Source: Diadema setosum
Taxonomy: Eukaryota > Echinodermata > Echinoidea > Diadematoida > Diadematidae
NCBI RefSeq assembly: GCF_964275005.1
Contig: NC_092686.1
Span: 11,405,032-11,469,031 of the forward strand
Reading direction: 5' to 3'
Length of the DNA stretch: 64,000 nucleotides
The notes under the pieces are model-generated. The model was not told the origin of the DNA, ran no database searches, and saw only the letters and a program-made list of their open reading frames with translations. The position numbers were made by a program, and so were the translations under genes. Shown here one piece after another: positions 16,801 through 53,156 of the stretch; the first letter of the stretch is position 1; each line of letters starts with the position of its first letter.

Positions 16801-19800
16801 TCCCACAATCCTCTCTCCAGTCCATCACCCAGAGTGAGCCCTCTACGGACCTTGAGCGTCGCATCAAGAGCCTAAACGATCACTTCACCTACAGCATCTA
16901 CCAGAACGTCTGTCGATCTCTCTTTGAGAAGGACAAACTCCTCTTCTCCTTTATTCTCTGTATTGGGATCGCCAAGGGAAGGTAAGAATCTAATTTTATG
17001 CTTTAATATAGAGGAGTTTATTAACTTAATATTCAAATTCCATGTATGCCTTCGAAATGAAAGTTATTTGTGGGCATCTCAGTAATTAGTACATAATTTT
17101 TCCATAGGAGTAGTCACTGAAGCTTGTCAGTTCTTCTGTGATAAGTTTTGCAAAATCCTGTTTGTTATCTTGATTATCCCAGGGGTGACATTGATGATCG
17201 TGAGTGGAGGTTCCTGTTGACAGGGGGCGTGGCTCTGGAGAACCCCTTCCCAAACCCCGCCCCCAACTGGCTGACTGACAAATCATGGGCAGAAGTGGTC
17301 AGGGTATCTCAACTGGATGCCTTTGATGGCTTCATGCTAAACTTCAGAACCCATGTGAGTAGGAAAGTTTTTTTTTTTCTTATGCAATTTTCATATTGAC
17401 GAAAAATTCAAATTCTCATATTCTAGATTAAGGTAGTTTGAGCAATATGTCTACTAGAAAGCAAAGAATGAGCTCAATATAATATTTTAATGTGTTACAA
17501 ATATTGCAAAGAGGAAATAAAATATAATTTCTTGTTTCAATCAAAGAGCAGCATGAAATAATTCGAGTAGTAAGTCCAAATATCATATCCCGAGTGTTTG
17601 TGTAATTTTAGTGTAGTGTATTTTATTTCTTCATATTTACTAAAAAGCACACCAGTCATAAGACAGCTGGCATTGGAAGGCCTTTGTGTTACACAATTTT
17701 ACAAAAAATATAGAAGCGTGTAACTCAAGCCTAGGCAGTTTGTGCTGTGTGGATTTTTCTTTGTGAATTAAAGGGACATGTATCATTTGTGATAAATCTT
17801 TTCCTCTGATCGATCCCAGATATCAGACTGGAAGAAGCTTTACGACTCACACACACCCCACACGGACAAATTACCCGAGCCTTGGGAACTCTGTCTCAGT
17901 GACATTGAGAAACTCATCATTCTCAGGATCATCAGACCAGACAAGGTAAATAATCCTTCTTTCTCTTTTTTTTTTTTTTTCATCCCACTGGGTATCCAGG
18001 AATATTTCAGGTATGTGTATCTTACGTAAAGTTCTTGGAGTGCCATGGTGTGTAATGAGTATGGTTCCGGACCTTGTAAACACAAGGGATCCAGAATTCA
18101 AATCCTGATGTAGATGACATTAATTGTTTATTAGACAAACTGAGAACACTATGTTCTCTCTCTCTCTGTTTTTTTTTTTTTTTTTCAGACTACTAGTGTT
18201 TGTGTAGTGGCATATTTTCATAGTTTCAGTCTGAGGTCAAAAATCATTTCTTACCATAATTTCGATGACATTAACGATGACATTGTATAATCATAGTCCT
18301 GCTGTTCACCTCTGTAACTCTTAGCCTATCAATTAAGGTGAACTTTAAACATCAATGCATCTCATCATATGTTTGATTTTTTTTTAATTTTTTGTCTCCA
18401 GTTCACTGGCAGAAACATTGACAGATGAAACTTATGATTATGTACTCACTCACAAGAATAAAAGTATAATTTTATCACAATCTTGGCCAAATATCTGTAA
18501 AGATATTTTATGTAGACAAAGTGGTGTGGCTCAACAATATAAATTGACCTTTTTGGTGATGTGGTACACCTGATGATATTTCATGCAGATTGTTCCAGCT
18601 GTCCAGAACTTCATCATTAAGGCCATGGGTCAGGCATACATTGAGCCGCCGACCTTTGACCTCGCCAAGAGCTACGGAGACTCCTCGTATTTCACCCCCC
18701 TCATCTTCGTGCTGTCGCCGGGGGCCGACCCCATGAACGTCCTCATGAAGTTTGCTGTGGAAAAAGGTGAGGTCTTCCTTGACCATGGAACAGATACAAT
18801 GTCTGCTTTCAAGGTTGATATGCTTGGTTGAGTGTAAAATAGCAAAGAAAGGAATACTGATAACACCTAAGACAGTTTACTAACTGGATTTGGGGGAATT
18901 TTGGGGGATTTAAAAAAAATATTGATTGATATCAAATTTTACATTCATACCGGTGGCATGGCATTCATACAGTACCTTGGTCATGCAACATAGTGTTTCT
19001 GGTAATTGGTGCTCTTAAAGGGTGTTTTTTTTTTTTTTTTTTTTTTTTTATACACAGAAACATATTTTGAAGCACATCGCTTTTGCACTGGTGCCAGAAA
19101 TTATGCAATTAATCATATGGCAATTGTTATGTCACAATTTGAAGTTAATTTTCAAAGTTTTCATGCCCAGCACACACCACGTTGCATTATGCGCACACAC
19201 TTTGCAGTCGTGAAAATTTATGTGGTAAAGTCACTTCAACTGATTATTTTGTTGTGAGATGCACTGTGTGTGTTGTAGCTCGAAATGTTACAAAGTTCAC
19301 ATGCTTCAAGTACTGTGTTTTAAGCAAGAATTTCAAGAAAGTTTTGTCACAGGAACATGCTGTCATTCATTAATTGTGTGTATTCACTATCAGCTCAGAA
19401 GCACAGGGTCATAAACGCTTTTAAAACTATGAATATAACACCTTTTTATTTCTCATCTGAAGATAACATGGTGTTTATGAATAGCTGCAACATATGTTTG
19501 AACATGCATTATAATGATCTTCCACATGTCAAGCTTGCATGAAGTGTATCTCCATACAGTGGCAATTGCAACCAAAGACATAGGCCCGAATTCACGAAGG
19601 TAGTACAAATGAAACCATGGTTTAAACCAACGACAAAAACCATGGAGCACCAAAAGTCGCATGGAGTATTTCATTATGAAATCAGTCATTTCGTCGATGA
19701 AATGATTATTTTGTAACAAAATGACAACATTTTGTAACTAAATGAACATTTCGTCCGCGAAATGATAATTTCGTTAACAAAACAGTCATTTTGTCGACGA

Positions 19801-22800
19801 AATGACCAATTTTGTAACGAAATATTCTGTGCGACACTTGGTGCTCCGTGGTTTTTGTCCATGGTTTAAACCATGGTTTCATTTGTACCACTTTCGTGAA
19901 TTCGGGCCATAATGTTTAAGAATCTGTGGGGAAGACTCAGATATTGCTTTCCAATTTTAACCAAGTATGCTTGGGAAAAAAAAAGTGCTTGTATGGCATC
20001 GGAGGAATAGGGTAGGATGCTTTGAACCTCACTTAACCAAGTTAAGCATGATATTGTGTTTTTGCTGAAAGTGCTGGTGCTATTACCCTTACTGCACTTT
20101 GCACAAATAATATACCATGGAAACACAACTAGATGGGTGCACGGACTAACAGTAGACAATCTGTTAACCAGTTACTGAAGATAACATGTGAATTGTGTAT
20201 GAGGGTGATGTTGCTGGAGGATTACATTGCATGGTTCTTGTAGAAGTAGAATCCCCCTCTAATGAGTGCAACCCCTTTTTTTTGTGCATTTACTTGTCCT
20301 TTACTGATGTAGTTGGTGCATGTGTGGGATAATTGTCTTGTGAATCCTTCCCAGCATGCCTAAATTACCCTTCAAGTATCTTTGGCATGAATACCCTGTT
20401 GCTGAGTGCACTAATCATATTCTTATTCCAGTCTTGTGAAGGATTCTTGATGTTTGTTCCCCCCCCCCAAAAAAAAAAAAGTGTTTGGTCAGATTTATTA
20501 GGGGAGCTTTATTGTGATGAATGCACACCACTTCTGGTTGCACATGGACAAAAGCATTTTTTTTTCTTCCAAAAATGACCATGCAGTTAGATAAACCTAC
20601 CATTTGTGTGTAAATTAGAGGTTATCTGTAAAAAAAAAAATGAAAGGGGTGTACGCATGTTCACAGTCACCATGCATGATGTATGTTCTATATGAGCACA
20701 TGTGACACAAGATAAGCCACAACAGATCTTAAAGCGGTGAGATGGGATTGTCTGTGCCGATGTTTATGCTGGCAGTTTGTCTTGATAAATCCGACTAAAA
20801 TGGAGATTTGTCAGCTTTCATACACAAGGTTGAAAGTGATATGCCAGTTTGTATGTGTGAGAGAGAGAGAGAGGTAGGTTAAGCATGTCACATGACTTGA
20901 ATTCATGCCATGTGATTCCTCTGCCACCATGTACAATTTCTGTCTTCCCCAAATAAATGCATGTATCTATGAAATGAAAATGATAACAGGTTTTCTCAAG
21001 CCACCGAAGCAAGAGACGCTGACCCTCAAGTCTGGTCTGAGCCAGTCGCCGACCACTGCCGGGGTGGGCAGCGCAAGGAGCGCGGCCGAGAGGAGGCCAA
21101 AACTATTAACGAGAGACTCCACAGTCTTGCTGGAGGAGATGTGTGCAGGTGATGGTAGTGGTGGTGATGGGCGTGGTAGTAGTGGTGATGCAGACAAGGA
21201 GGAGATTGGCTCTGCCCGCATGCTTCCTAGCACAGCACAGCAGCCCACCGGCAGTAGTGATAGCGGCTCACTATCGCCTAGCCCTACCCAGCCAACGTTC
21301 AATGTCAGCACTAACCCCCTTTGGGTCCGGGTGGAGTCGGGCAGCAGCTCCCCCGGACCGGTAGGCATGCATGAGGACTCCCAGTTTGAGCTTGTCGCTG
21401 AAGATTTAGTAGACATCTACCCCACTGCACGCGCTCTTTCTGTCATTCCGGAGGCAGAGAGCTCTGCCGAGACAGACCGTGAACCCACTCCCGACACCCA
21501 ATATAATGCTCCCAATCCCATGCTTGCATCCTCATGCCGCATTCACCCTCTGGCTGCCCCGCCCAAAGCTGCCTCCCCCATCTCTCCATCTCCATCTTCT
21601 TCACTGTCTCCGTGTGAGAATGAGAGTGGTCCTGGGGAGCCACGCCCCAAAACCTCCACAGAGGAGAATCCAGACCATCCCCCTCAGCAAGTCCCCCAGA
21701 CTGACGGGGAGGCTTCACCGACGCCCCTTGACCCCGTTGAGGCGGCTGGTCTGGAATACCTCGGAGATGCTAGTCGCCATCGTCGGAGGTCAACTGTCTA
21801 CCGCCCTCCTGTGACCAGATCCCTCAGCAGTATGTCCCGCAAAAACCCTAGAGAGAGTGAAAACTCTTCAATTGATTGCCTCTTTTTTTTCCTTTCGTTC
21901 ATCTCTTTCTTTCTTTGAAATATATTCATATATATCATCATCTTCTTTTGCAGATATTATACCCTTCTTTTCCCTCTGTTGCAGTTCATTCCCTCTGTTC
22001 TATTTTTTTTAAGCCTCCGCCAACGAAGTGGCTGGAGGCATTATGTTTTTGGGTCGTCCGTCCGTCCATACGTCCGTACGTCCGTCCCGTTTTGTTTTTG
22101 TCGATATCTCAAGAACCGTGAGGTGGTTTTGCATCAAACTTGGTATGAGGGTATATCCTGGGGGGATAATACTTTGTTTGGATTTTAGGGTCTCGGGGTC
22201 AAAGGTCAAAGGTCACAGGTTATTTTGTGAAAAAAAGGTTGAAATTTCATGTTTTTCTCCATATCTCGCAAATGGTTCAAGGTATCTTCATGGAACTTAG
22301 TATATATGCATGTACCGATGGGCAGTGATTATCTAGGGAAGTTGGGGGTCATGGGTCAAAGGTCAAGGGGTCAAAGGTCAAGGTCAACTCCTCTATATAT
22401 CACTGCTTTCCTTATATTTATGCAATGCCTGAAGGATTTTTTTTTTTAACTTGAGTATGCATGTATAACCCAATATATATTCTGTGGGAAGTTTCTTGCC
22501 AAAAGGTCAAAGGTCAAAAGGTCAAAGGTCAAGTGAAAGTGCTAAATTGCAATTCTTCCTCCATATCTCAAAAGTAACTCAAGGTATTATCATGAAACTT
22601 ACATATTTATGCATGTTCTACCTAACAGTGATTCTCTTTGGAACTGTGAAGTCAAAGGTCAAAGGCCAGGTTTAGATAATACTATTTTACCATTTGATAC
22701 TGAAATTATACTCTTTCTCAATACCTTGAAAATTACTCAATGCATAAACTTATAAAAGGGTCAAAAGTCAAGTAAAAATCATCATTTCCCCCAAATACCT

Positions 22801-25800
22801 GCACTCTGACGTTTTAATCATTCATCCAATTAAACCTAGTTCTAGGAAAGTGAACATTCAGCACATTTGTGGCAAACCTGTCATTTTAATATTTTGCCAA
22901 TTGTGTGAAACTTTCATCACACATTGTCAAGACATTGTACTATAGACCTATTAGGAGAACCGTGCATTATGGCGGAGGCATACACCAGTCGCCGTAGCGA
23001 CATTTCTAGTTTCTGTTTGTCTTTAAATTGTATCACATATTAAGCGTACTTCTGATTATTATTCTAAGAGTTTATTGCTGGATTATAATTGTCAAATACT
23101 TAAGATTGATGTTCATCCTTTCAATCTTTTTTTAATTGTACTTATGGAGTTTTGTTTTCAACCGGTTTAAGCAGGGGTCGATTCGTAGAGATATGTGATC
23201 ATGATGCAGCATTTAGATATAGACAGCTGGGTTGCCATGTTTATAACCATGCCAAAAAAGTGCAGATATTGTGCTCATGACTGCAGATCATCAACTAATC
23301 CTGAGTTTGAGCTTTAAAGCCATGAACCATACTGTAATAAAACAATATTCCCAATCATATTCCAGTATTTAGTGTATTTTTACATTCCTTAAATTTTATT
23401 TTGTTTGTGTCACTCTAAGTGCCGATCGACAATTGGTACCAAATCAAGTTTAAGCTACATTGTTTATACACATGAAAAAGCAGGATTGAACAGATTTTTA
23501 CTTAAAGAAATTGTATTCATTTGTGAATTATGCCAGTCTGTCAGAGTAACAAAGGATCAGCGAAGATTATTCATGCAGTATAGTATGTAGATTAGTATCT
23601 TCTGAAGCCCAGTTTAGTGTTTCGACAAACGGAGTAGCAAAGAAGTTGGTTGAGTTTTGATGTTTTAAATTATACCAATCACAAATATAATATTGGTACA
23701 ATTAAGCTTTTAGATTTATAGGCTTTGTGTATTTTGGACCAGTGCAATAACACCTGCATGCCAAAAAATGAAGAAGAAGAAGAAACAAATAAACAAATCG
23801 AGAAGAAGCCCTGTTTGGAAGTGATGACATGGCAGAAGATAGGGTCTTCCATCAAATTCATTTGTATCTTTTAGCTCATTTCACATGCATCCAAACATGA
23901 TGAAAGCATATCTTGTTCTGCATTCACAAAAGGAAAGCATGGACTTATTATTTTCTTTTTTGTCTTGCAAAAGCTGCAACGGGGAGCCGTAGATGCATCC
24001 TGTATTTTAGATATTTCTTCATTTAAAAGTCATATTTATATGGTCAAGCAATGTTCATACACTCTACTGCATCCTTTGGAAAGATAAATATATCTAATAG
24101 CAAAATAATGAAAATGAGAGTTTACTGCATTCATTCAAGCAGGTCTTCAATTTAATTCGATCGTTCTGTGTTTTGTATCTTGAAATGACCCATACATCTC
24201 AATTTTGTTTTTCTAGAAAACATTTATTTCTTTCCCAGCACCTTGCATTCTCCTCTTCAGGTCATATATTATGATTGCATGTGCATGGCATGTTGGAAAT
24301 GTGCTAACCAATGAGTCATTCCTAATGTAATATTTCATTTTAGTAAGACCTTTTTATTTTTTTCTAGTTACGCATAACCATGCAAAATATCTGGTTATAA
24401 CACTCGATCTGCACATTCACGAAAACAAACCACAAAATCAGTCATGTTTATATGATTGTGGAATACATTCAAGTATAAATTAAAAAAAAAGATTGCTAAA
24501 GAAAATTGTTTCGACTTTTATATCAGAGTCTTGCCTTCTTTGTTTTAATCTTTTGATGTGATTAATATTTTTCTCCCTCAAAAGTAGATTGAAAAAAATG
24601 GGAGAAAAATTGAAATAATTCATACATACTTTACATGCACAATTAGGACCTACATTTTATATGACTGATTTTGTGAATAATTGCTATCGGTTCACTAATT
24701 TATGATATTGCATGAATTTTTTTGAAAATTAATATTCTGTTGGCATGATGTGTTAGATTTAACACTAACGGCATGCTTCACACAATGCACCTGTACATGG
24801 TTATCTAATCCTATATGATTGTGTGCTAATGACTGTTGTGCTAACAAATTATATTGATCAATTTTAAATGTTATTCATTGGAGTGGTGATTCGTAACAAA
24901 AACATTGCCCTGTAATCATTATATCATGCACATGTATTTCCAATAAAAAAAATTGTATCTATTGAATTTAGCTTATGGTTTAACTGCTTACTGAATTTCT
25001 AACCTGGGTTATGTTTCAAAGTTAGCATTTTTGATGACCACATTCATATCATTCTCTTTTTTTTTCTCATGTGTTATTGTCTTTTGTTTGTTTATTTGTT
25101 TGTTTTTTAATGCAGTAAAGAGATCTCAATATTGATTTACCCTCCTTTGCAGTCTACTATTTCAAAATCTGATTTGGAACAAACCAGAACCAGTTATTAC
25201 ATGAATACCTGCTGCAATATTTCTAGACATTATTTCCTCTTATTAATTGACAAGAGCTTAGAGACATGCTGTAAATATGAGATTTGCTATACTGCCAAAT
25301 GTTAAAAGATGGATTTCATTGAAAAAGAGTGTTTTGAAGAAGAAATAATGAAGACAAATTCACCACCAAAATTCTGGTTAAATCTTTATTTGTGCTGGTA
25401 TTGTAGCTGATGAGATATGATCTGGTGTCCTCTCTTTTTGTTTGTTTGTTTGTTTGGTTTTTGTTGGGGAGGGAGAGAAGGGAATTAGGAATATTAAATA
25501 TGTCTTTATGTATTTGTTATTGTGAATTTCATTTTAGTTCTATTCAGTGCTTTAGCAATCATATCCATGATGAAAATAACACTGAAAAAAAAAAAGAATA
25601 GGTGCAGCATGCATTCCATTCATTAAGACTGCAGGTCGCATAAATGCATGGGCAAAGCAAGTATTTTGCATCGATCAATGCAAAGATATAATTATACATA
25701 CAATGTAGGCATGCAACAACATATATGTATATGATTATACATAACTCTTCCTTCACTGTTCAACTCGATCTTATTCAGTAATGCTGCTTGACCAAAGAAA

Positions 25801-28676
25801 TGCATATCACATGCAAGGAAAGAGTTATGGAAGTACATGCAAAAAAGTATTTATGGTATATAAGCTGTCATGTCATTATTCAACTTGATTTAATAAAATC
25901 TTATTTTTTTTTTTCATATATCATATGTAAACACACTATAATATATGCATCGTGGGAAAGAATATTTCATTCACACTTCACTACACACTCTTCTATTCTA
26001 GGCATGGGTGGTCCTGGACTACAGACTGTGTCTCTAGGACAGGGACAGGGACCAATTGCATCCAAGCTGATTGATGACGTGAGATTTGTTCAATTATATT
26101 TCAACTACACAAATGAACACATTTCCTGCAGAAATTCATCAAAAACTTTCTTTTTGTGAATAAAAAAGAATAGGTGCAGCATGCATTCCATTCATTAAGT
26201 GGTTACATGAAGTGGTGCAGGAATGACTACTGCAGAGTACAGATTTGTGTGAACATGTAGCATTGATGCACATGGTTATATGTACCATACACTGTATGTA
26301 GTATTTCAGTTGTAGAATGCATAGGAGCTCTCTATGTATTCATTAAAGATGATCAAGGCTGTTATTTGGAATGGGACACTGGTGGTATGACACATAATGG
26401 CCATCTGGTTCCCAGTATATGCCAAATTTTTTCATATTTTCCTCTCTGTCTTTCATGTCTGTCTGTCTGTTTACAAATTGTATCTGTCTTTGTCACTGTC
26501 AGTATATTTGTATCTACGTATCAATCTATGCTTATATCATAGCCAGGTACCTTGTTTACTGGTCACTCTGCAGAATGGGGCCTCAGCAGTCCTGCTGAAG
26601 TGCCGTTTTCTTCTCTTGTCCCTGCATATACACAGATTTGTTTATCTCCCATCTATTCATGTCAGTCTTGGCTTTCTGAATATGTGTTTATGTTGTCAAT
26701 CAGTGCTCCAAGTCTGACTCATGGTTGTTGGTTGCTGCCCTCTGTAGGCGGTTGAGAACGGGACATGGGTAGTCCTACAGAACTGCCACCTGGCTCTCTC
26801 TTGGTTGCCCACCCTGGAGAAGATCTGCGAGGAGCTTATCACCGATGCCGAGCGGACACGCCCATCCTTCCGTCTCTGGCTGACCAGCTACCCCACGCCC
26901 ACCTTCCCCGTCTCTATCCTCCAGAACGGAATCAAGATGACCAATGAGCCCCCCAAGGGCCTCCGTGCCAACCTGCTTCGCTCCTACCTCAACGATCCCA
27001 TCTCAGATCCCGAATTCTTCAATGGCTGCACCAAGCCTGATGTAAGTTCCCTTTTCTCTGTTCTCATACATCATATGAAATGATTGAGTTCTCAGGAACT
27101 GATTATACCACATCCAGACAAATTCCTCAGAACAATTACAGTGTACATCCTGAATAAGTACAGTTTTTAAGAGTTACCCCCAGGTCTTATTGCAACCCCA
27201 GAACTTACCTGGTACTCCTAGGTGGCCTACAAGGACAATTACTGACCAGGACAAATATCTCCAGGATCTGCTAGGGACATCATTCTCATGGTAGTTATGG
27301 GAGCGTGTGATTATCACAGAGGGTACTGATCCTTGGAAATGATGGGTTATAGGGATTATTGTCCAGGAATATTCACCAGAAGACCTGACCATATGAACAG
27401 AACATATGTCTCTGTCACCTAATGACAATGTACATGTGCCTTGGTACACCTGGGGGGCATTTCATGAAGGAACTTGTCGGACAAAATATCTGACAAGTCA
27501 ATTATATCCGACAAGTTTTGAGAAATTCTTTACTCTGATTGGCTGATTTCTCTGATCTTGTCGGATATAATTGACTTGTCGGACATTTTATGCGACAAGT
27601 TCCTTCATGAAATGCCCCCCTGATTTTCTTCCTCCAATGTCTATTGCTGCCATTGAAATGATGATTGAATTCACAAACATAATGTATTGCATCCATCTAT
27701 AGGGCTTAAATAGAAATATGGAATGCTGTCAATCTTTGTGTAGTAAAGTTTATGCAAAGCAATTCAGAATTCATATTTTACCTTGATCCTGATTTTCATG
27801 TCACAGTTGTGTTGAGATAGAAGATTGGTTGATGGTATAGATCAGTATGAGAATTCCTCTCGTCATTAGTCAAAAATTTTCCTTTCACTTTGTGGTGTGA
27901 TTGAGTTCCACATTGTCCGCACTTGAGTAGAGGACTTATGAAGCGTTTTCCACGTTCATGATAAAGTAGAATGTGATTTTTAAAAATCACATTGATGGCA
28001 TGTGATTTTTAACCCATTGAGGACGGGCTGATTTTGCTACAACATGCATTTCCCATAGACTCCTCCCCGAGTATACTCAGGACTCGTCCTCAAGGGGTTA
28101 AAAGTCAGATTGGTGATGTGTGATTTTAAAAAGTCAAATTGATGGATGTTTGTCTGATTTCTATGTAGCTGTGGAGGAAGCTGCTCTTCAGTCTGTGCTT
28201 CTTTCACGCCTTGGTCCAAGAGAGGCGCCAGTTTGGACCCCTGGGTTGGAACACGCCCTACGAGTTCAACGAATCGGACCTCAGGATCAGTGTCAGGCAG
28301 CAGCAGGTAACATGCACTCATTTTCACTCTCACTGCCTCCCCCCTCTGTCTTTGCTCCACATTTCTAATTTGCCAGTACACACCAAATACTTCCATAATG
28401 TAGGTATTAAAGATACCAGTTGTTTTTATCCCATTTAGAGATGATTCCATAACCTTCTATAGAGAAATGGATGGACACAAGCTTGTCACATTTCATGAAT
28501 TATTTGTATGTTTGTGTTACCGTACTGTATTGGAGCTGCCTCTTTAGCATGGTGACATAGCCAAAAACCTGGTTTTATTTGCATCTCACCTCACTTATGA
28601 GGGAAGTGGATAAGTATTGTACAGTCACTATGTCAGATCATGTCCTTTTACGACATGCTCTAGGAATAATTGTATA

Positions 28677-37700: not shown

Positions 37701-39749
37701 CTCGCCAGTAATATTCCAGAACTCTTCATTTCCCACAGCATACTGTTTGTTTGTTTATGATGTTTGTAACTCTGATGATTGGCTCATACTGTTTGGAAAA
37801 GGTTGATTTGGTGAGCTGTTTAGGACAGTAAAAAGCCTCCTGATAGCAGGAATTTACTATGGGCAAACTTTGATAATTCATGCGTGTGGGTCCATTTCGT
37901 CTGTTGAGAATAATAAGGGCGTAAAGTTGCCACTAAACTCATGGTGTTCAAGACAACTTAACGCCCTTCTCATTCTCAACAGTCGATTTGTGCCATTATA
38001 ATTGAATTTTATTTTTTTTTATTCATGCACAAATTTTGTGGTTTAGAAATGAAGATATTATTTCAATTTATGTAAACCTTTAGATAAGTAAGTTTGTGTA
38101 TGTGCATTAAAATACTGACACATATGTATTTGCCAACACCCACATATGCATTGGCTTGTACATCCATGATGTTTCACACATGTCTCATATTTGCTGGTTC
38201 CAGAGTGATGGTGTGTATGTGAAGGGCCTGTTCATCGAAGGAGCAAGATGGGATCGGCCAACTCAACTCCTGGCCGAATCGCTGCCCAAGATTCTCTATG
38301 ATACGTTGCCAGTTGTATCCTTTCTTAAAAATATTCTGTGTGGATGGCTGTAGTTATTTGTGACACATGTAGAGGATTGCAAATGGGTTTTCTGTGATGG
38401 TGGTGTACTGTAAAACATCATGATATATTCGTTGCATGAAAATTTCGCGAATTGGAGCCGATGGCCTTTCTCGCGGCATGAAATTTTCGCAAAATGCCAC
38501 TGGCATCCAATGCATATTGTGTAGGCAAGAACTTTCGCATGCAATTTAATTTTGCAAATGTCGGCGCTTCCAAAATTTGCGAAATTAAAATGCATGCGAA
38601 CATTCTGTGTTTTACAGTATTCATTTTGAAGTCTGTGAATGTAGTCAATGGTAATTTACCATATTAGAATGATTGCCAATTATGGGCAGAAAGAGATTTT
38701 TAAAAAAGATTTCTTTATCACTTTGCTGTAGAAGATATAGTGTGAGCAGTGATGTAACTGACACTGAATATGTCATCATTCGTGTGGACACAGATGCACC
38801 AAACAAAAATGAGAAGAGTTGTCATGTACATTGTACAAATTACCATTTGTAGTCCCAAAATGAATGATGATGTAAGAAAAGATTACTGTGATGTTGATAG
38901 TGATAGAAGTGATGGTCATGATTCGTAAAAGAGCTTTTGTCTCCTAGTTTCAGAGTTTAGAATCAGACATTAATGAAGCATATTCAAATCTGTTAAACAA
39001 TTACAAGTTAGACTCTACTGTTGAGTTTTGATTGTACATGTACATAGTGCTTATTTGTAAACTTGTCAGATATGGCAATACTTTAGCTGGGTTATGAGTA
39101 AAGTTTGCTTTGCCCTGTGGATGTCTATAAAGCTCAGTTGTGGCATGCCACATAGATTTGTCAATTTCCTTGACCATCATCACCTCTGACCATCAGATCT
39201 GGGTGAAGCCAACAGAGAAGTCCAACTTGAAGACCAGGCAGTCATATTCATGTCCAGGTAAGTGTCTTTCATATAAGTAAAACAGTAATGCAATATGCCT
39301 CATGATTACATCAAAGACAGCAGTCCTGAACATGCAATGGATGATTATTATGAGTACTTCTGGATTTTAGTAGTCCTTCAGTAGCTTTGTCTTTCAAATT
39401 TGACAACTTCACAAGAGAGACAGCAGTATCAGGTGCCGAAGAGATGCATAGTTAGGTTTTGCTGTCATGCAAATACAAGAGCTATCAAGCAGCAGTAACC
39501 ATGTTCATAGATTTTATGTCGATGCGTGGCAAAGATTCATTGAGAGACTTGTTCAACAGAGACACACATGAAGTGTTCATTCTATGTTTCTTGGATTTTG
39601 CAGTGTACAAGACTAGCGTGAGGCGGGGCACTTTGTCCACCACCGGCCACTCTACCAACTTTGTCCTGGAGATGCAGCTGCCGTCGTCACGGAAACCAAA
39701 CCACTGGATCAACAGGGGTGTGGCCATGCTGTGTCAACTAGACAACTGA
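414..39749 (+). CDS. DNAH3: Axonemal dynein heavy chain, DNAH3-like, 3' part of the gene (32 exons)
   Basis: Motor part of an inner-arm ciliary dynein heavy chain, an ATP-driven minus-end microtubule motor of the axoneme. Thirty-two GT-AG exons sum to 4767 nt and keep one frame, giving 1588 residues and a TGA stop. In order they encode the end of AAA4 ([30 protein letters not shown]), stalk helix CC1, the microtubule-binding tip (exon 7), CC2, AAA5 ([16 protein letters not shown]), the buttress coiled coil, AAA6 ([15 protein letters not shown]) and the C-terminal domain ([11 protein letters not shown], final LCQLDN). The N-terminal two thirds, including the AAA1 P-loop, lie outside the window. 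Assignment to the DNAH3/7/12 group is firm by family knowledge. DNAH3 is preferred over DNAH7 and DNAH12 from C-terminal details recalled, not searched. Introns range from about 170 nt to 7.2 kb and are loaded with miniature transposons. The gene is convergent with BAP1. Confidence 0.93.
1031..1164 (+). CDS. DNAH3: Dynein exon 2: end of AAA4
   Basis: 134 nt beginning [11 protein letters not shown] directly after exon 1 DWFK; the family has DWF-x-WPEDAL here. Acceptor gcacag, donor gtaagg. Ends in phase 2. Confidence 0.94.
1671..2395. mobile_element. TTAA-flanked miniature element, family A copy 1 (piggyBac-like ends)
   Basis: Body 1675-2391 starts CCCTAATCCCACCGG and ends in its inverted copy, flanked by TTAA on both sides. 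Inside are runs of G and C next to the termini and an AT-rich centre. Homologous, in opposite orientation, to 41124-41903. No transposase frame. It lies 50 nt before dynein exon 3. Piggybac affinity is inferred from TTAA and the CCC ends. Confidence 0.75.
2446..2608 (+). CDS. DNAH3: Dynein exon 3: AAA4 to stalk base
   Basis: 163 nt completing the split Arg codon. Contains [12 protein letters not shown], the conserved entry to the stalk, then the start of coiled coil 1. The acceptor tccag lies only 50 nt after a transposon end. Confidence 0.94.
3003..3605. repeat. Intronic tandem duplication, second copy split by a transposon
   Basis: Copy 1 about 3003-3196 and copy 2 about 3206-3605 share ordered blocks (TTGTCTTMATTGTCT, CTCCTGAAACTTGAAA, CAAGTYGCTTA). 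The 3321-3537 element lies inside copy 2 only. Confidence 0.65.
3321..3537. mobile_element. TA-flanked miniature element with TTTTCGCG arms, copy 1
   Basis: About 26-bp nearly perfect terminal inverted repeats (ATACTGTACGAGCTGAAATT) and many internal TTTTCGCG/CGCGAAAA words. TA at both ends suggests a mariner-type target site. It interrupts one copy of an intronic duplication. Confidence 0.78.
3628..3810 (+). CDS. DNAH3: Dynein exon 4: stalk coiled coil CC1
   Basis: 61 codons rich in Lys, Glu and Ala with heptad character ([18 protein letters not shown]). Acceptor ttgcag; the donor gttggt is weaker than consensus. Confidence 0.94.
4304..4462 (+). CDS. DNAH3: Dynein exon 5: stalk CC1 distal part
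   Basis: 53 codons with [20 protein letters not shown] and the conserved [17 protein letters not shown] leading to the stalk tip. Confidence 0.95.
4505..4935. repeat. Degenerate minisatellite, ATGATGGTATAAA-type units
   Basis: Roughly 430 bp of 12-17-nt units such as AATGATGGTATAAAGGTGAT, with many variants. In the intron after dynein exon 5. Confidence 0.8.
5222..5293 (+). CDS. DNAH3: Dynein exon 6: short stalk exon
   Basis: 24 codons ([23 protein letters not shown]) joining CC1 to the microtubule-binding domain. Acceptor cacag, donor gtacgt. The FxDFWxxAK pattern is usual for this family. Confidence 0.92.
5897..6097 (+). CDS. DNAH3: Dynein exon 7: microtubule-binding domain
   Basis: 67 codons: [20 protein letters not shown] through [20 protein letters not shown]. 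This is the stalk tip that contacts tubulin. The sequence is of the DNAH3/7/12 type and unlike the DNAH1 type. Confidence 0.95.
6677..6832 (+). CDS. DNAH3: Dynein exon 8: stalk CC2 start
   Basis: 52 codons opening [20 protein letters not shown], the conserved return helix of the stalk (family VxPK motif). Confidence 0.95.
7465..7665 (+). CDS. DNAH3: Dynein exon 9: CC2 into AAA5
   Basis: 67 codons with [16 protein letters not shown] and [17 protein letters not shown], the end of the stalk and first helix of AAA5. A TCAA microsatellite starts about 45 nt after the donor. Confidence 0.95.
7710..7806. repeat. (TCAA)n microsatellite
   Basis: Tetranucleotide ATCA repeat with a CATCCACC interruption. 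Just after dynein exon 9. Confidence 0.92.
8471..8604 (+). CDS. DNAH3: Dynein exon 10: AAA5
   Basis: 134 nt with [19 protein letters not shown] and AGLPVDN (the Asn codon is split with exon 11). Donor gtgagt, phase 2. Confidence 0.94.
8777..8948 (+). CDS. DNAH3: Dynein exon 11: AAA5 core
   Basis: 172 nt with [20 protein letters not shown] and [16 protein letters not shown]. This is among the most conserved AAA5 blocks; AAA5 has no functional Walker A in this family. The intron before it is only 172 nt. Confidence 0.95.
9565..9651 (+). CDS. DNAH3: Dynein exon 12: AAA5
   Basis: 29 codons: [20 protein letters not shown] then TFKQ. Matches the universally conserved [11 protein letters not shown] block. 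Acceptor tgtag, donor gtaaga. Confidence 0.94.
10396..10512 (+). CDS. DNAH3: Dynein exon 13: AAA5
   Basis: 39 codons: [20 protein letters not shown] then [12 protein letters not shown]. The donor gttcgt is weaker than consensus. Confidence 0.94.
10855..10911. repeat. Two adjacent short palindromes
   Basis: GGTTTGAT..ATCAAACC (10855-10878) and ATCACTTTGC..GCAAAGTGAT (10889-10911) lie 10 nt apart. No link to a known element. Confidence 0.6.
11133..11300 (+). CDS. DNAH3: Dynein exon 14: AAA5 to buttress
   Basis: 56 codons: [19 protein letters not shown] then a charged helix ([13 protein letters not shown]), the first arm of the buttress coiled coil that braces the stalk. A minisatellite begins about 40 nt downstream. 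Confidence 0.94.
11341..11955. repeat. Minisatellite of about 85-bp units
   Basis: Six or so imperfect units with CCAAATATAGATTGGCATGA, CAGGTGCTAGTACACC and TATTTTGTTTTTGTTGTTTA, interrupted at about 11460-11585. In the dynein intron after exon 14. Confidence 0.78.
12579..12734 (+). CDS. DNAH3: Dynein exon 15: buttress
   Basis: 52 codons: [20 protein letters not shown] then [18 protein letters not shown], the second buttress arm. Acceptor acaaag, donor gtgagt. Confidence 0.94.
12817..12982. mobile_element. Short element with CAG-GGCGGATCC ends
   Basis: CAGGGGCGGATCC at the left and GGATCTGCCACTG at the right, with G runs inside. ATATA occurs on both sides as a possible target duplication. 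The CAG-type ends resemble hAT miniature elements. It lies just after dynein exon 15. Confidence 0.6.
13333..13437 (+). CDS. DNAH3: Dynein exon 16: AAA5/AAA6
   Basis: 35 codons: [20 protein letters not shown] then [11 protein letters not shown], near-invariant in this group. A 3.4-kb intron follows. Confidence 0.95.
13438..16820. other. 3.4-kb dynein intron without recognised genes
   Basis: Apart from the AAAAC repeat and a short TG run near 14437, this is AT-rich single-copy-looking sequence. No conserved frame or clear transposon ends seen. Confidence 0.6.
13477..13531. repeat. (AAAAC)n simple repeat
   Basis: ACAAAACAAAACAAAACAAA-type run just after dynein exon 16, interrupted by CCGTT and TC. 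Confidence 0.8.
16821..16981 (+). CDS. DNAH3: Dynein exon 17: AAA6
   Basis: 161 nt with [20 protein letters not shown] and [16 protein letters not shown]. Acceptor ctccag, donor gtaaga, phase 2. Confidence 0.95.
17183..17354 (+). CDS. DNAH3: Dynein exon 18: AAA6
   Basis: 172 nt: [33 protein letters not shown]. Completes the split Arg codon from exon 17. Donor gtgagt. Confidence 0.95.
17820..17945 (+). CDS. DNAH3: Dynein exon 19: AAA6
   Basis: 42 codons: [20 protein letters not shown] then [12 protein letters not shown], the conserved LRxxRPDK hinge. Confidence 0.95.
18039..18115 (+). mobile_element. Older relative of the same tRNA-derived SINE head
   Basis: CATGGTGTGTAATGAG.. then TTGTAAACACAAGGGATCCA and GAATTCAAATCC (B box). 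The block aligns with TTGTTAACACGAGATCCAGG of 36600-36620. Confidence 0.4.
18589..18766 (+). CDS. DNAH3: Dynein exon 20: AAA6 up to SPGADP
   Basis: 178 nt: [41 protein letters not shown]. Ends in phase 1 with a split Gly codon and donor gtgagg. The next certain exon is 7.2 kb away, with the candidate cassette exon between. Confidence 0.95.
19583..19908. mobile_element. Fold-back element with GGCCCGAATTCACGAA ends
   Basis: Long inverted arms (about 75 nt): GGCCCGAATTCACGAAGGTA to the matching GTGAATTCGGGCC, flanked by ATA. The centre is an array of short palindromic words of the TTTCGTCGACGAAATGA type. In the AAA6 intron of dynein. Confidence 0.75.
20990..21829 (+). CDS. Candidate in-frame 840-nt cassette exon (Ser/Pro-rich, disordered)
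   Basis: A GC-rich frame stays open through this stretch inside the AT-rich 7.2-kb AAA6 intron. It is preceded by gataacag and followed by donor gtatgt. Both junctions are phase 1, the same as intron 20/21, so inclusion would add exactly 280 residues between EKG and MGGPGLQ. The predicted peptide has [18 protein letters not shown] near its start, many proline-directed sites ([23 protein letters not shown]), an acidic stretch, and a basic end ([19 protein letters not shown]). I recognise no domain. An inner donor at 21149 (CAG gtgatg) is also phase 1 and would give a 53-codon version. Its pyrimidine tract is mediocre. Alternatives are a nested intronic gene (gccaccATG at 20929) or an exon with the readthrough stop at 21916-21918, which would truncate dynein before its C-terminal domain. 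Confidence 0.5.
22011..23010. mobile_element. About 1-kb repeat element with CGTCCGTC and AGGTCA arrays
   Basis: Bounded by GCCTCCGCCA at the left and its inverted form TGGCGGAGGC near the right end, then CGCCGTAGCGACATTTCTAG. Inside are (CGTC)n and repeated phrases ATATCTCAAGAACC / ATATCTCGCAAATG, each followed by runs of AAAGGTCA. No coding frame. It begins about 180 nt after the candidate cassette exon. Confidence 0.65.
26002..26078 (+). CDS. DNAH3: Dynein exon 21: AAA6 LGQGQG block
   Basis: 77 nt: completes Gly, then [20 protein letters not shown] and KLIDD. Directly continues AVEKG of exon 20 in the family alignment, which shows that the standard splice skips the candidate cassette. Confidence 0.94.
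26748..27041 (+). CDS. DNAH3: Dynein exon 22: AAA6 end / C-terminal linker
   Basis: 98 codons: [53 protein letters not shown]. This is the longest confirmed dynein exon here. Acceptor tgtag, donor gtaagt. Confidence 0.96.
27452..27620. mobile_element. 169-bp palindromic miniature element
   Basis: GGGGGGCATTTCATGAAGGA at the left, TCCTTCATGAAATGCCCCCC at the right. The arms continue with ACTTGTCGGACA and its complement, leaving a short loop around CTGATTGGCTG. Intron after dynein exon 22. Confidence 0.8.
28009..28101. mobile_element. TTAA-flanked 93-bp palindromic element, family C copy 1
   Basis: TTAACCCATTGAGGACGGGC at the left and CGTCCTCAAGGGGTTAA at the right. It sits inside a short repeated unit (TGATTTTTAAAAATCACATT and relatives) in the intron before dynein exon 23. 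Confidence 0.7.
28169..28306 (+). CDS. DNAH3: Dynein exon 23: C-terminal domain start
   Basis: 46 codons: [40 protein letters not shown]. Acceptor tatgtag, donor gtaaca. The frame is confirmed by the conserved [11 protein letters not shown] block. Confidence 0.95.
28679..28706. repeat. (GAT)n microsatellite
   Basis: Nine GAT units in the intron after dynein exon 23. Confidence 0.9.
29049..29309 (+). CDS. DNAH3: Dynein exon 24: C-terminal domain
   Basis: 87 codons: [59 protein letters not shown] is diagnostic of heavy-chain C-termini. Confidence 0.96.
29415..29580. mobile_element. 166-bp miniature element with GGGCCCCATTTCA ends
   Basis: GGGCCCCATTTCAAAAAAGT at the left mirrors ATGAAATGGCGCCCT at the right. 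The inner parts also pair (TTGCTGGAATGGCAA against TTGCCATTTCAGCAA). Intron after dynein exon 24. Confidence 0.7.
30067..30154. mobile_element. 88-bp palindromic element, copy 1
   Basis: Arms CGTCTGTTGAGAATGAGAAG.. and ..CTTATCATTCTCAACCGACG of about 32 nt around a short centre. The same element occurs at 37898-37985 in inverted orientation. Confidence 0.75.
30223..30315 (+). CDS. DNAH3: Dynein exon 25: C-terminal domain
   Basis: 31 codons: [20 protein letters not shown] then [11 protein letters not shown]. Acceptor tccag, donor gtaagc. A small palindromic element ends about 70 nt upstream. Confidence 0.95.
33583..33645. repeat. (GATTA)n-like repeat
   Basis: Units TTAGA/GATTA repeated with a few substitutions. 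Intron before dynein exon 26. Confidence 0.8.
33801..34221. mobile_element. Pogo/Tigger-like miniature element
   Basis: CAGTTGAACCTCTCATATCC at the left and GGATAATAGAGGTTCAACTG at the right, flanked by TA. Subterminal TCCGGATAA words repeat near both ends. These ends are typical of pogo-type (Tc1/mariner) elements. The interior has no transposase. In the intron before dynein exon 26. Confidence 0.75.
35187..35285 (+). CDS. DNAH3: Dynein exon 26: C-terminal domain
   Basis: 33 codons with [20 protein letters not shown], the conserved helix after the LLL loop. It follows a 4.9-kb intron. Confidence 0.93.
36187..36369 (+). CDS. DNAH3: Dynein exon 27: C-terminal domain
   Basis: 61 codons: [40 protein letters not shown]. 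Acceptor acacag, donor gtgagg. Confidence 0.95.
36570..36780 (+). mobile_element. tRNA-derived SINE piece
   Basis: TGGTGCAGTGG (A box, 36573-36583) and GGGCTCAAATCC (B box, 36618-36629) at Pol III promoter spacing, followed by unrelated sequence (CCTTGACCAAGGTGTC) as in SINE bodies. Not a functional tRNA: no foldable acceptor stem was apparent. Confidence 0.55.
36824..36916 (+). CDS. DNAH3: Dynein exon 28: C-terminal domain
   Basis: 31 codons: [20 protein letters not shown] then LARLQFFK, with the conserved [13 protein letters not shown] piece lies in the intron just upstream. Confidence 0.95.
37325..37424. mobile_element. TTAA-flanked small element, family C copy 2
   Basis: TTAACCCATTGACGACTATC at the left, AGTCTTCAGCAGGTTAA at the right, with the shared core CCCGAGTATACTTGGGACT. 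In the intron before dynein exon 29. Confidence 0.65.
37504..37677 (+). CDS. DNAH3: Dynein exon 29: C-terminal domain
   Basis: 58 codons: [39 protein letters not shown]. The FYFT spelling favours DNAH3 over DNAH7 and DNAH12 (FFFT). The donor gttggt is weak. Confidence 0.95.
37898..37985. mobile_element. 88-bp palindromic element, copy 2
   Basis: CGTCTGTTGAGAATAATAAG.. to ..CTTCTCATTCTCAACAGTCG. The centre matches the reverse complement of the centre of 30067-30154, so the two insertions have opposite orientation. Confidence 0.75.
38204..38314 (+). CDS. DNAH3: Dynein exon 30: C-terminal domain
   Basis: 37 codons: [33 protein letters not shown]. The donor GTT-gtatcc is weak, but the join to IWVKP is exactly the family sequence. 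Confidence 0.93.
38406..38619. mobile_element. TA-flanked miniature element with AATTTCGC words, copy 2
   Basis: TACTGTAAAACATCATG at the left and CTGTGTTTTACAGTA at the right, with internal AAATTTCGCGAATT and its variants. A diverged relative of 3321-3537 and 42921-43133. In the intron after dynein exon 30. Confidence 0.65.
39197..39257 (+). CDS. DNAH3: Dynein exon 31: short C-terminal exon
   Basis: 61 nt: [20 protein letters not shown]. Acceptor catcag, donor gtaagt, phase 1. Confidence 0.93.
39604..39749 (+). CDS. DNAH3: Dynein exon 32: last coding exon with stop
   Basis: 146 nt: [35 protein letters not shown], then TGA at 39747-39749. The acceptor is ttttgcag. This is the normal heavy-chain C-terminus. 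Confidence 0.96.
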
Positions 39750-48692: not shown

Positions 48693-48917
48693 CTACTTGT
48701 ATTTGCCCGACTTCTTGCGAATACCCCGGGATCGCTGCTTCCTGCGCCGCCGGTCCGGCTTTCGGTTCCTCTGGAGGCGCCCCAGCGAGATGCCCTGGCG
48801 GCGCTTGATGAGGGCGTGCTTTTCCACCAGGGGCGCAAGCTTGCCCTGCTCCGCCAGCATGGAGAGGAAGGTGAAGATGAAGGGGTCGTAGTTGTGGGTG
48901 CGTCTGTTGTCGTCCAC
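48693..48917 (-). CDS. BAP1: BAP1 coding exon 12: ULD-type domain, basic tail, stop
   Basis: 225 nt: [40 protein letters not shown], then a basic end (RKKSGKYK) and TAG at 48695-48693. Very close to the human C-terminus. The basic tail is probably the nuclear localisation and nucleosome contact region. Confidence 0.96.
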
Positions 48918-51900
48918 CTGTGGTAGCATTGAAAGAGAAAACTGATTGTTTACTATCATAATTCAATGACAGGCACATGTGCCAACTTCTATTTTACACC
49001 AGTGTGTAATTGGTGTGGTAAAATAATCGCTCAGAGTGATAACAACATCAGCACAATGTCGATTTACATTAAAACAAGTAAAGCAGAGAAGAAAAAGGAA
49101 TAATGTATGGGAATCTACACTTGTTTGAATGTGAGATCTTGAAAAATTGATGATATGATTTTCACTATTAAATGTGAATAAAGCATTACTCAATATGTAT
49201 TGACAATTAAAACAGCACAAGACAGATAAACACACAAATTCTTCAGTCACTGTTTTCAACCTTTTGAGCCATATACTAATTTACGATCTAGCAAACAATT
49301 ACATCGTTTGCCTGTATACAAAAGAATTACATATAAAATCTGCTGTTGGTTTTGAATTGTTCACATGATTCTGCTCATGAATATTTATCACAAATGTAAT
49401 GCTTTCCCTGCTGTTCAAATTATAAATTGTGCTGTATTTTTTTATGTCTGATTCTCATGATGAAATGCAAAATAAAATAAAACTGAAACTGACGTAGTAA
49501 GAATAAGATGTGCATTATCAACATTCTAACCTGGTTGATAGCTTATTATTGTCTTGCTCTACTTTGATATATCAGTTAATGCATTTTAAAAAGATGAACT
49601 CACCTTGTATTTGTTTCTCTTTTCCTTTTCATCCTGTAGTTTCTGCTCATATACACTTATCTCACTCTCTACTCCCTTCAGAACATCAAGCAGTTCCTGA
49701 TGGAATGATAGGAAAGTAATTTCACATGAACACATGCCAATTCTTTTAAAGTGTGTTACACAATTAATGTAATAATGACTGGTTACATACATTGTACCTT
49801 CTGACATGATTCTTTGCAAAGAGAAATACATTCTAAGAAGTATGCTGTGTCTGAAAAGAGGAAAGTTTGTCTACAACAAAATACATAATAAAGTAAATCT
49901 CAAAATTAGTCACATACCAAATATTCTGTAACAATACATGAAGATAAGAATCAGGCATCCTAAAATTTTGTTCCTTAAATCATGATCTGAAATAAGCATA
50001 CATTGTAATCCCACTGTCCTACAACTTGTATACAGGATCAAAAAATTGAATAACTTTTAGAAAACTCTTTGCTATTGAAATGGGCGCTACGTTGTAGCAG
50101 TTATTGATAAGTCTACTGTGAACTCCGTCAGTTGTGAAGTCACTAAAACAGATCTTGACAACAACTTTTCTCAATTACAATCTAAGTTTAAATCTGAAAT
50201 TTCGTGGCCCAAAATAAATGGAAACATTACAATCCATTTTCAGTCTTAAGTGCCTGATCACACTACCAAAAGATAGTATTCTGGGAATTTGGTGGCCCAA
50301 AATAGATTCTTAGTGGTGCAGTGCAAATGCTAATGTTAATTCCTGACTAAAACACTGGAGTGAAAAATTGTCAGGATCTTGTTTGCCACAGCTCCCTTTT
50401 CCCATCCCATTGTGAACAGGAGGCTTACCCCAGGGGTGAAGTGCTGGGTGTCATCCTGTTTGTTGGCGGCCCTCTTGATCTTGGTCCACACCCCTGCCTC
50501 CCGCTTACCGGAGCCACGCCCCCCTGATCCATCCTTGTTGAAGAGCTGCCTCTTGGCCTGAACGTCTGCATCATCAAAGTCAACACCAGGTCTCTTCCTC
50601 AATGACTTCAGCCTGTTTGATCAAGCACGATGGTAATAGATACATTACTAAAATATACAAAATAATTAAACACAATTTAAGGTTTCTTGGCCTTAACAAC
50701 ATAGCTCGAATCGACTTGTTTACAAAAACAAAACAATATAAAAAAGAAGCAATAAACATACTTCTTAACAACAAGAAACAAACTGAATATACTGTTTTGA
50801 CATATGCTCTGAGAGGCAAGATTGCATACAGACTGACGATGCATGAAGTTTGGTGATGGCATGAAAACTTTGCAAATATGTGTTTGTCTGCAGCTCTCTG
50901 TAAACATCACACTGATTGATCTGTACTTATACTGTGATTTCTAAAGTGAAAAAATGGTTTTTTTTGTAGGTTGCATTCTCGTGTAATCTAAAGCTACTTT
51001 TCAGCATGACGCAGGGAGAGAGGAGAACGTCCAACACAATCGTCTCAAACGTCTGCGTTGCAAATCTAAAGCTCCCTCATGCCACCTCATAAGCGAAGAG
51101 TTTTGGCAAAACAGGTGTTTGTACACTGTAATTGCAAGTGCTCTCTATGAAACAACAATTTCATAATTTCTTTGAAGGGATACCTGTTGATATCCAGTCC
51201 TCCGATGTCACCGCCCTCATCAATGATGGCCTGCTTTCGCTCATCCTCTATCTTCGCGATGGCAGCCTCCAGCTTGTTCCGCTCATCTGCGTTGGCGCCG
51301 GCTTTCCACTGCTGGAACTTACCGAGCTTGCTCGCCGTGGGACTATTGGAGCGTGACTGGCTGGCCGACTTGACCAGCGGTGAGTTGAAGGCACTGCCCG
51401 CCTCCGAGGCCGTGTCCGTACTGTAGTTGCTAGGCGACAGGGAGCCTGGCGACATTCGTTCAGGAGCGGTGTGGATGGTGAGGGGCTGGCAGAGGTCTGG
51501 AGGGATTTTGGCGGTGAAGGAAAGCAGTGGTCTACTGGTAGCAAAGGGGGTAGGCTCCACTTTGATGCCCTCCACTGCACTCGTGCTCTCCACTCCCTTC
51601 GTCTCCTCAGAGTCTTTCGAAGGATCCTCACACACCTCACTGTCGGCACAAATCCCGGCTTTTTCTTCATTTGCTGTGACCAGCAGCACATCCCCCTTGG
51701 AGTCTGCTGGGCTGGAATTGATGCTGACCACGTCAACCTCTTCCTCCTCCTTCACAGCGATCTCATCACCGCCTTCTGGAGCCGACGATGAGGATGTGGA
51801 TGATGATGACGTTGATGAGGGGAGGGCTTGCAGTCCCTGCTCCTCATCCTCATCTATGTGTTCCTTGACACTGTTCAGGCTCTTCTGCTCTGGATGTCTC

Positions 51901-53056
51901 TCACCACCTTTCTCCTCATCACTCTCTGAGTCTGGCGATTCACTGTTGAGGCTGGAAGCCGACAATTCGTCACAGGACAAAGGTGACTTGCAATAATTAT
52001 GGGTATCCAAGGCTGCTGGTAGTCTGTGTAGGAAGAGGAGTATGAAGAATTAAAGAGGACATTCAGTGACACAGCTGTGCATCAGTCTTTGATCATGCAA
52101 TGTCACCGCAATATCCTTAAACAGACTTTCAATTAGTAGTTGCAGAGTTACTATTAAAGTAGAAGGTACCCATACCTGATTTGCATGTATTTATTTATTT
52201 ATTCATTTATTCATTTTTGCTTTACAAGTTCAGTCCGCATCCCCATTAATTATATGCACAGTGGCAACTCTCCAGAATTTTTCTGGATCTTGGATTTGAA
52301 ATATGAAAGAAAATATTTGTCATGGTTAATAGAAGATCTCCCTTGTTTTCACCTGTCTTCAATACCTACTGAGGAATTTAAACACCACAATTTTGTCTAT
52401 TTCAAAACAAATTGACAAATTAAGCGATAAGACTCAAAACTATAAGGAAACTTGCACAGTGGCTTCAAGCACACTTAATTTCTGCCTTAAAATGGGTGAA
52501 CAATGAGGTATAAACAAACAAAAAAATACTAAAAAACAAGTGAATGTATGACAATCTTAACACAGATTGAGAGATATAGATAGACTGGGCTGAGAGAAAT
52601 TGAGGTTATGCTGAGAAGGCACATACTTGTACGTTGGTGTTGGACTCGGCCCCTTGTCCCTCGAGATCTGCTTCTTTTTCTTCTTCTTTTTCTTCTTCTT
52701 CTTTTTACCTGAGGAATGTTCCCTATGAGCCCCGTCTTCCTTCTCCCTGCTTGACTCTGCCTCCAGGGAGCTCCTCCCCGCCTCTGATACTGATGATGGC
52801 AGTGGTGGAGGTGGCAGTGGAGGAGGAAATGGAGCAGAGTCTGGGTGGTGGTCAGTGTCTGGGACGGACTGTCTCTCTTCTTTCACCTGACCTGCTGGCT
52901 TCTCGGAGGAGGCTACGGGGCCAGCACTGGAAAGCCTTGCGCCTGCCGACGCATCTCCTGATGGTCTCTGAGTCGACTCAACCAACTGAAATGATTAGGC
53001 AAGACAAACACATCTAGGATATAGGTTGGGAACAGCCAATATAGATAGATAGATAA

Positions 53057-53124
<68 letters not shown>

Positions 53125-53125
53125 G

Positions 53126-53156
<31 letters not shown>

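Follow-up and report, generated by a model that had tools for sequence, protein, structure and literature searches.

A candidate regulated cassette exon of 816–840 nt in the AAA6 region of a DNAH3-like dynein gene of the sea urchin Diadema setosum

Introduction

Variation in splicing has been described for a Drosophila gene of the DNAH3 type. The DNAH3 homologue CG17150 has an extra exon of 39 bp that is cell-type-specific, being found in the antenna and not in the testis, and that is missing from the genome annotation and is the penultimate exon of the gene (PMC6367277). For varied splicing of DNAH3 this small exon is a direct precedent. The other system that bears on the present locus is the set of inserts found in the large subdomains of the dynein AAA+ modules. 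These inserts (H2 and PS-I) are short and located in AAA1–AAA5, and the AAA6 large subdomain is described as having no inserts and as having lost nucleotide binding (PMC4047620).

The present work deals with an open frame found in an intron of a dynein gene in a window of 64,000 nt, by which we mean the whole stretch of D. setosum DNA that was analysed. A sequence-only reading had proposed that part of this frame, 20990–21829, is a hidden exon. Like the Drosophila exon, the candidate would be an optional extra exon in a DNAH3 homologue with a length that is a multiple of three; unlike that 39-bp penultimate exon, it measures 816–840 nt, lies in AAA6 and is known from sequence alone. It resembles H2 and PS-I in being extra sequence in a dynein AAA+ large subdomain, but where the inserts of AAA1–AAA5 are described as short, it would add about 272–280 residues to AAA6. 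Among the matches listed in a search of the open-access literature, as judged from titles and the openings of abstracts, no paper on an insert exon in AAA6 was found.

The host gene and its longest intron

The host gene lies on the plus strand, and 30 of its exons were annotated by hand in the window; at least two small exons are absent from this annotation, between 8949 and 10395 and near 39173–39241. The spliced C-terminal motor (567 aa) has its best PDB match in 8j07_g3, named DNAH3, at 892 bits, the other best chains being DNAH7 at 824 bits and DNAH12 at 797 bits. Judged by these matches, the identification of the host as a DNAH3-like axonemal dynein is supported. A tektin exon from this genome has its best match, at 390 bits over 193 residues, in the tektin of PDB 8snb, a sea urchin sperm structure, and the next tektin chains follow far behind; residues differ between the two, so that 8snb most likely comes from another sea urchin species. 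The intron that holds the open frame (Table 1) is the longest of the 28 annotated and the sole one in phase 1, with 24 of the others in phase 0 and 3 in phase 2. It interrupts AAA6 directly after FAVEKG, ahead of the residues of the exon at 26002. An insert at this position is absent from the four PDB alignments inspected, and in none of the 43 PDB chains listed does the match to the 567-aa query cover more than 590 residues.

Three paralogues were compared at the same place. The DNAH7-like paralogue (L010, reverse strand, about 614–1491) has an intron of 877 nt in phase 0 that lies 1 nt from the host position, and no frame of more than 97 codons is present in it. The offset of one nucleotide, with phase 1 in the DNAH3-like gene and phase 0 in the DNAH7-like one, may reflect either an intron slide or two origins. 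No intron is present at this place in L003, on C8, or in the DNAH12-like L007. L003 (C8:9311247-9314582) is a DNAH3/7-like heavy chain in which AAA6 is encoded in one unbroken frame of 213 codons.

Table 1. Features of the window that bear on the candidate exon
Feature	Coordinates	Strand	Remarks
Upstream host exon	18589..18766	+	Phase 1, last letters AAA G; encodes SPGADP of AAA6; 19th of the exons annotated in the window
Host intron	18767..26001	+	7,235 nt
Whole open frame, stop to stop	20896..21918	+	340 aa; stop at 21916-21918
Stretch after gccaccATG	20929..20991	+	-17.6 bits over 21 codons; intron-like, not coding-like
Two in-frame ATGs (20974, 20980) at the edge of the coding signal	20974..20982	+	Possible independent start
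Candidate coding segment or exon as proposed	20990..21829	+	840 nt; both ends in phase 1
Same exon with better-scoring phase-matched acceptor	21014..21829	+	816 nt, 272 codons; acceptor -0.9 bits, against -3.9 bits at 20990
Weak donor GTATGT, preceded by GCA	21830..21835	+	1.4 bits; best phase-1 donor near the right border
Other coding-like block in the host intron	22052-22105	-	18 codons; from the coding scan
Downstream host exon	26002..26078	+	Starts GC ATG GGT; LGQGQG block
BAP1-like gene	48696-58188	-	UCH_C match (9.8e-10), over the cut-off; sub-threshold Peptidase_C12 piece
Disordered coding-like block of the BAP1-like gene	51183-51971	-	Between the UCH_C and Peptidase_C12 pieces

Composition and extent of the open frame

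Much of what the sequence-only reading had seen here holds. The frame runs in the sense direction without a stop for 340 codons, and the candidate segment is GC-rich, with a GC content of 0.57–0.62 at the three codon positions against 0.36 and 0.34 in the two flanking stretches of 100 nt. Its borders (ACAG/GTTTTC on the left, AGCA/GTATGT on the right) keep phase 1 on both sides as in the host intron, and translation of the host G, 20990–21829 and GC gives an uninterrupted peptide. A run of at least 279 open sense codons in 840 nt was seen in only 3 of 20,000 first-order Markov shuffles. The peptide is rich in Ser and Pro, as had been noted, with 43 and 37 of these among its 282 residues. The acidic middle that had also been described did not emerge, as Asp and Glu together number 12, 13 and 12 in the successive thirds, an even spread in which any such feature is at most local.

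The candidate frame contains 11 Ser/Thr-Pro sites, one RRRS site and one DSGSLS match, to which we presumptively attach kinase and degron meanings. A single-sequence fold, a model with no alignment behind it, gave a mean pLDDT of 46.3 and reached 70 or more at 1 of 279 residues, which is weakly consistent with predicted disorder.

The best-scoring coding segment, 20995–21855, approximately matches the proposed exon, which ends at 21829. Change points in base composition fall at 21000 (range 20985–21018) and 21840 (range 21816–21861), and these ranges make the borders compatible with the named splice sites without being fixed by them.

Is the frame translated?

The period-3 chi-square of the candidate is 36.7, a value reached by none of 5000 shuffles; with tandem repeats masked it is 27.8, reached by 2 of 3000 shuffles of order 1 and by 1 of 3000 of order 2. 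In 13 windows of host coding sequence of the same size the statistic ranges from 52 to 127, so that the candidate lies below all 13. The periodicity is genuine, yet weaker than that of the host gene. The amino acid make-up departs from expectation in the same frame, with Cys, Trp and Arg depleted (21 observed against 41.6 expected, as low in 0 of 2000 nulls) and Asp and Glu enriched (37 against 20.7, as high in 1 of 2000). The two departures together occur in none of the five other frames of the segment, and masking of tandem repeats leaves each measure at a level that 1–2 of 2000 nulls attain. The ratio of observed to expected CpG is 0.56 in the candidate and 0.54 in the host coding sequence; outside the candidate the host intron has 0.41, and other introns have 0.30.

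A comparison is provided by a second gene in the window, whose name, BAP1, is assumed from its order of domains. It contains a disordered coding-like block of 263 codons, with no Pfam match of its own, that is attributed to the gene by way of the neighbouring pieces. Like this block, the candidate is long, Ser-rich, acidic and poor in Cys, Trp and Arg; the same test applied to the block gave 11 observed against 42.3 expected for Cys, Trp and Arg and 52 against 26.8 for Asp and Glu, a stronger pattern than that of the candidate. Unlike the candidate, the BAP1-like block also has host-like codon choice, with a score that 0 of 2000 nulls reach.

Codon choice in the candidate itself has to be read with care. 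The codon score is +0.428 bits per codon, and the highest value among 33 intronic frames of at least 60 codons is −0.317. With stop-free nulls of the same dinucleotide make-up, however, the codon score was reached in 237 of 2000 cases and the synonymous score in 1443 of 2000; the same null, applied to two BAP1-like blocks and two dynein exons, reached their scores in 0–2 of 2000. The codon-usage score was therefore dropped as proof of coding and codon choice is not relied on here, since composition explains it once controlled. A codon-position base model trained on the host and BAP1-like exons did not single out the candidate (365 of 5000), and a comparison of frames by position only favoured the open frame in two of five pieces when the segment was divided into fifths. 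An earlier comparison by quarters was set aside as biased, since it penalised stops.

In the coding scan the candidate is the only large coding-like block of the host intron. The scan was trained on the very host exons that it recovers, 29 of 30, and missed the short exon at 26002, which means that exons of small size may go unseen by it.

It is the amino acid bias and the period-3 signal, both outlasting the stop-free and repeat-masked nulls, that support coding, and the frame is very probably translated now or was until recently.

Splice sites

The borders were scored against 51 acceptors and 51 donors, 28 of each from the host gene and 23 from introns of the paralogues. The paralogue introns were picked by alignment alone, with 2 of 25 joints omitted for an alignment gap of more than 15 residues. 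A 29th host joint was unreliable and was dropped, and a small exon is missing from within the joint 8949/10396, both sites of which were retained. The acceptor at 20990 scores below all 51 comparison acceptors, the lowest of which has −0.3 bits, and it has 3 pyrimidines at −15 to −4, where the minimum among real acceptors is 6. The acceptor at 21014 is better, yet still below all 51. An acceptor of 4.2 bits at 21010 is in phase 0 and would break the host frame. The donor at 21830 exceeds one of the 51 comparison donors, that one having 1.2 bits. The acceptor thus falls outside the range of real family sites and the donor sits at its floor; against the 28 host sites taken alone, which were picked partly by consensus score and are flattered by it, both the 20990 acceptor and the 21830 donor score below every one.

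These poor splice sites argue against constitutive use of the candidate exon. Stronger phase-1 sites lie within the frame, a donor at 21149 (8.7 bits) and acceptors at 21236 (7.4 bits) and 21569 (6.4 bits), so other phase-matched choices outscore the full-length exon and shorter exons are possible too. Nor does the agreement of phase carry much weight, since by chance 45% of intron positions are expected to offer a phase-matched AG within 34 nt, and 64% a phase-matched GT within 46 nt; phase symmetry and the flanking dinucleotides, on which the sequence-only reading mainly rested, are therefore weak evidence. For the cassette exon put forward in the sequence-only reading, what stands is the identity of the host, the symmetry of phase and the coding character of the frame, and what does not is the quality of the splice sites and the force of a phase match that is common by chance.

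Just 3′ of the candidate donor lies a pyrimidine-rich tract, 21876–21917, of a type to which splicing repressors bind.

Other readings of the frame

The rival that survives best, and one that we regard as rather unlikely, is a gene or transcript of its own on the sense strand within the DNAH3 intron, which would end at 21918 or splice elsewhere and yield a stand-alone disordered protein. It would start at 20974 or 20980 and not at 20929, the gccaccATG that had been suggested for a nested gene, which is disfavoured by the intron-like score of the codons that follow it (Table 1). A nested gene would leave no weak acceptor to be explained, its two in-frame ATGs coincide closely with the onset of the coding signal, and the codon use is unlike that of the host (GC3s 0.558 in the candidate against 0.703 in the host gene). 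An in-frame ATG within 7 codons of intron DNA is, however, expected 18% of the time; the coding signal stops near 21855, with −6.4 bits for the stretch from the candidate donor to the frame stop (21829–21918); the first AATAAA or ATTAAA past the stop is only at 22829; and the same strand of the intron has no further large coding-like block, as seen by a scan that could miss small exons.

It is unlikely that the frame goes unused as protein, being either a former exon, since decayed or exapted, or a block of high GC content in which the long open frame is partly due to chance. The codon scores that composition explains, the poor proposed splice sites and the lack of a relative in the collections searched would all agree with such an origin, but 340 codons without a stop would not, nor would a frame-specific amino acid bias and periodicity that survive the stop-free and repeat-masked nulls.

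An alternative terminal exon of DNAH3, read through the weak donor in a frame open to 21918, or an alternative first exon, begun inside the intron at the in-frame ATGs of 20974/20980 and spliced from 21829 to 26002 to give a C-terminal fragment, is quite improbable, as for the terminal form the coding signal ends ahead of 21918, at about 21855, which disfavours, and does no more than disfavour, the 3′ end that had been proposed there, and as a motor cut within AAA6, in keeping with what holds for AAA+ rings, is not expected to fold.

A proposed regulated cassette exon in AAA6

The reading that we tentatively prefer is that the frame is a genuine sense-strand coding segment of the DNAH3-like gene, which encodes an inner-arm dynein, and that it most likely serves as a cassette exon under regulation, with weak splicing. 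The cassette exon leads as a single reading despite its poor sites because weak splice sites are frequent in regulated exons. Skipping of the exon would give the ordinary motor. Inclusion, which might be restricted to certain tissues, would use an acceptor before 20990 or 21014 and the donor after 21829, all in phase 1, and would place in AAA6, after FAVEKG, a segment of about 280 or 272 residues that is rich in Ser and Pro and predicted to be disordered. Going by the order of elements in AAA+ modules, the insert would fall in the H1-S2 loop, which leads from the helix past the degenerate P-loop to the next strand, where a flexible surface loop could be tolerated. There it could serve as a phosphorylation or docking arm, and for such an insert the putative role of a disordered arm on the ring, open to phosphorylation, is reasonable. 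The full proposal, a regulated DNAH3 isoform with about 272–280 disordered residues in the AAA6 large subdomain acting as a switchable phospho- or docking arm, is conceivable and is put forward with greater doubt.

Sperm and larval cilia of sea urchins are classical material for the study of axonemes. If the candidate is used, the dynein ring would be able to accommodate in AAA6 a flexible insert of very large size, and inner-arm motors would be tuned by splicing, matching the small Drosophila DNAH3 exon (PMC6367277). If it is unused, it stands as a warning that phase-matched intronic open frames are easily over-read.

Searches for relatives and the flanking repeats

No Pfam family matched the candidate frame at E<=1, and no relative was found in the PDB, where the one line returned (E 0.18) looks like a chance match of low complexity. 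A search of the animal's own genome (912.7 Mb) for a second copy or a parent, at the DNA and the protein level, returned only the window's own copy. A retrocopy or a transposon-derived frame was rejected, there being no other genomic copy and no known domain. Among prokaryote contigs 27 pattern matches were obtained and none was confirmed, and among viral contigs none of 2 was, which is as expected for an animal gene. Rfam gave no match at the gathering score in the whole window.

Repeats are present on both sides of the frame. Upstream lies a MITE-like inverted repeat, 19583–19714/19777–19908, with arms of 132 nt that are 86% complementary; its left arm had 567 first-look candidates genome-wide, 40 of which were scored. 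Just 3′ of the frame is a high-copy interspersed element, sampled at 22010–22420 and perhaps extending to about 23005, with 2587 first-look candidates, and among the 40 that were scored the 39 besides the window's own copy are 94–97% identical. By eye, the two ends of this element resemble an imperfect inverted repeat, one that is absent from the output of the inverted-repeat scan.
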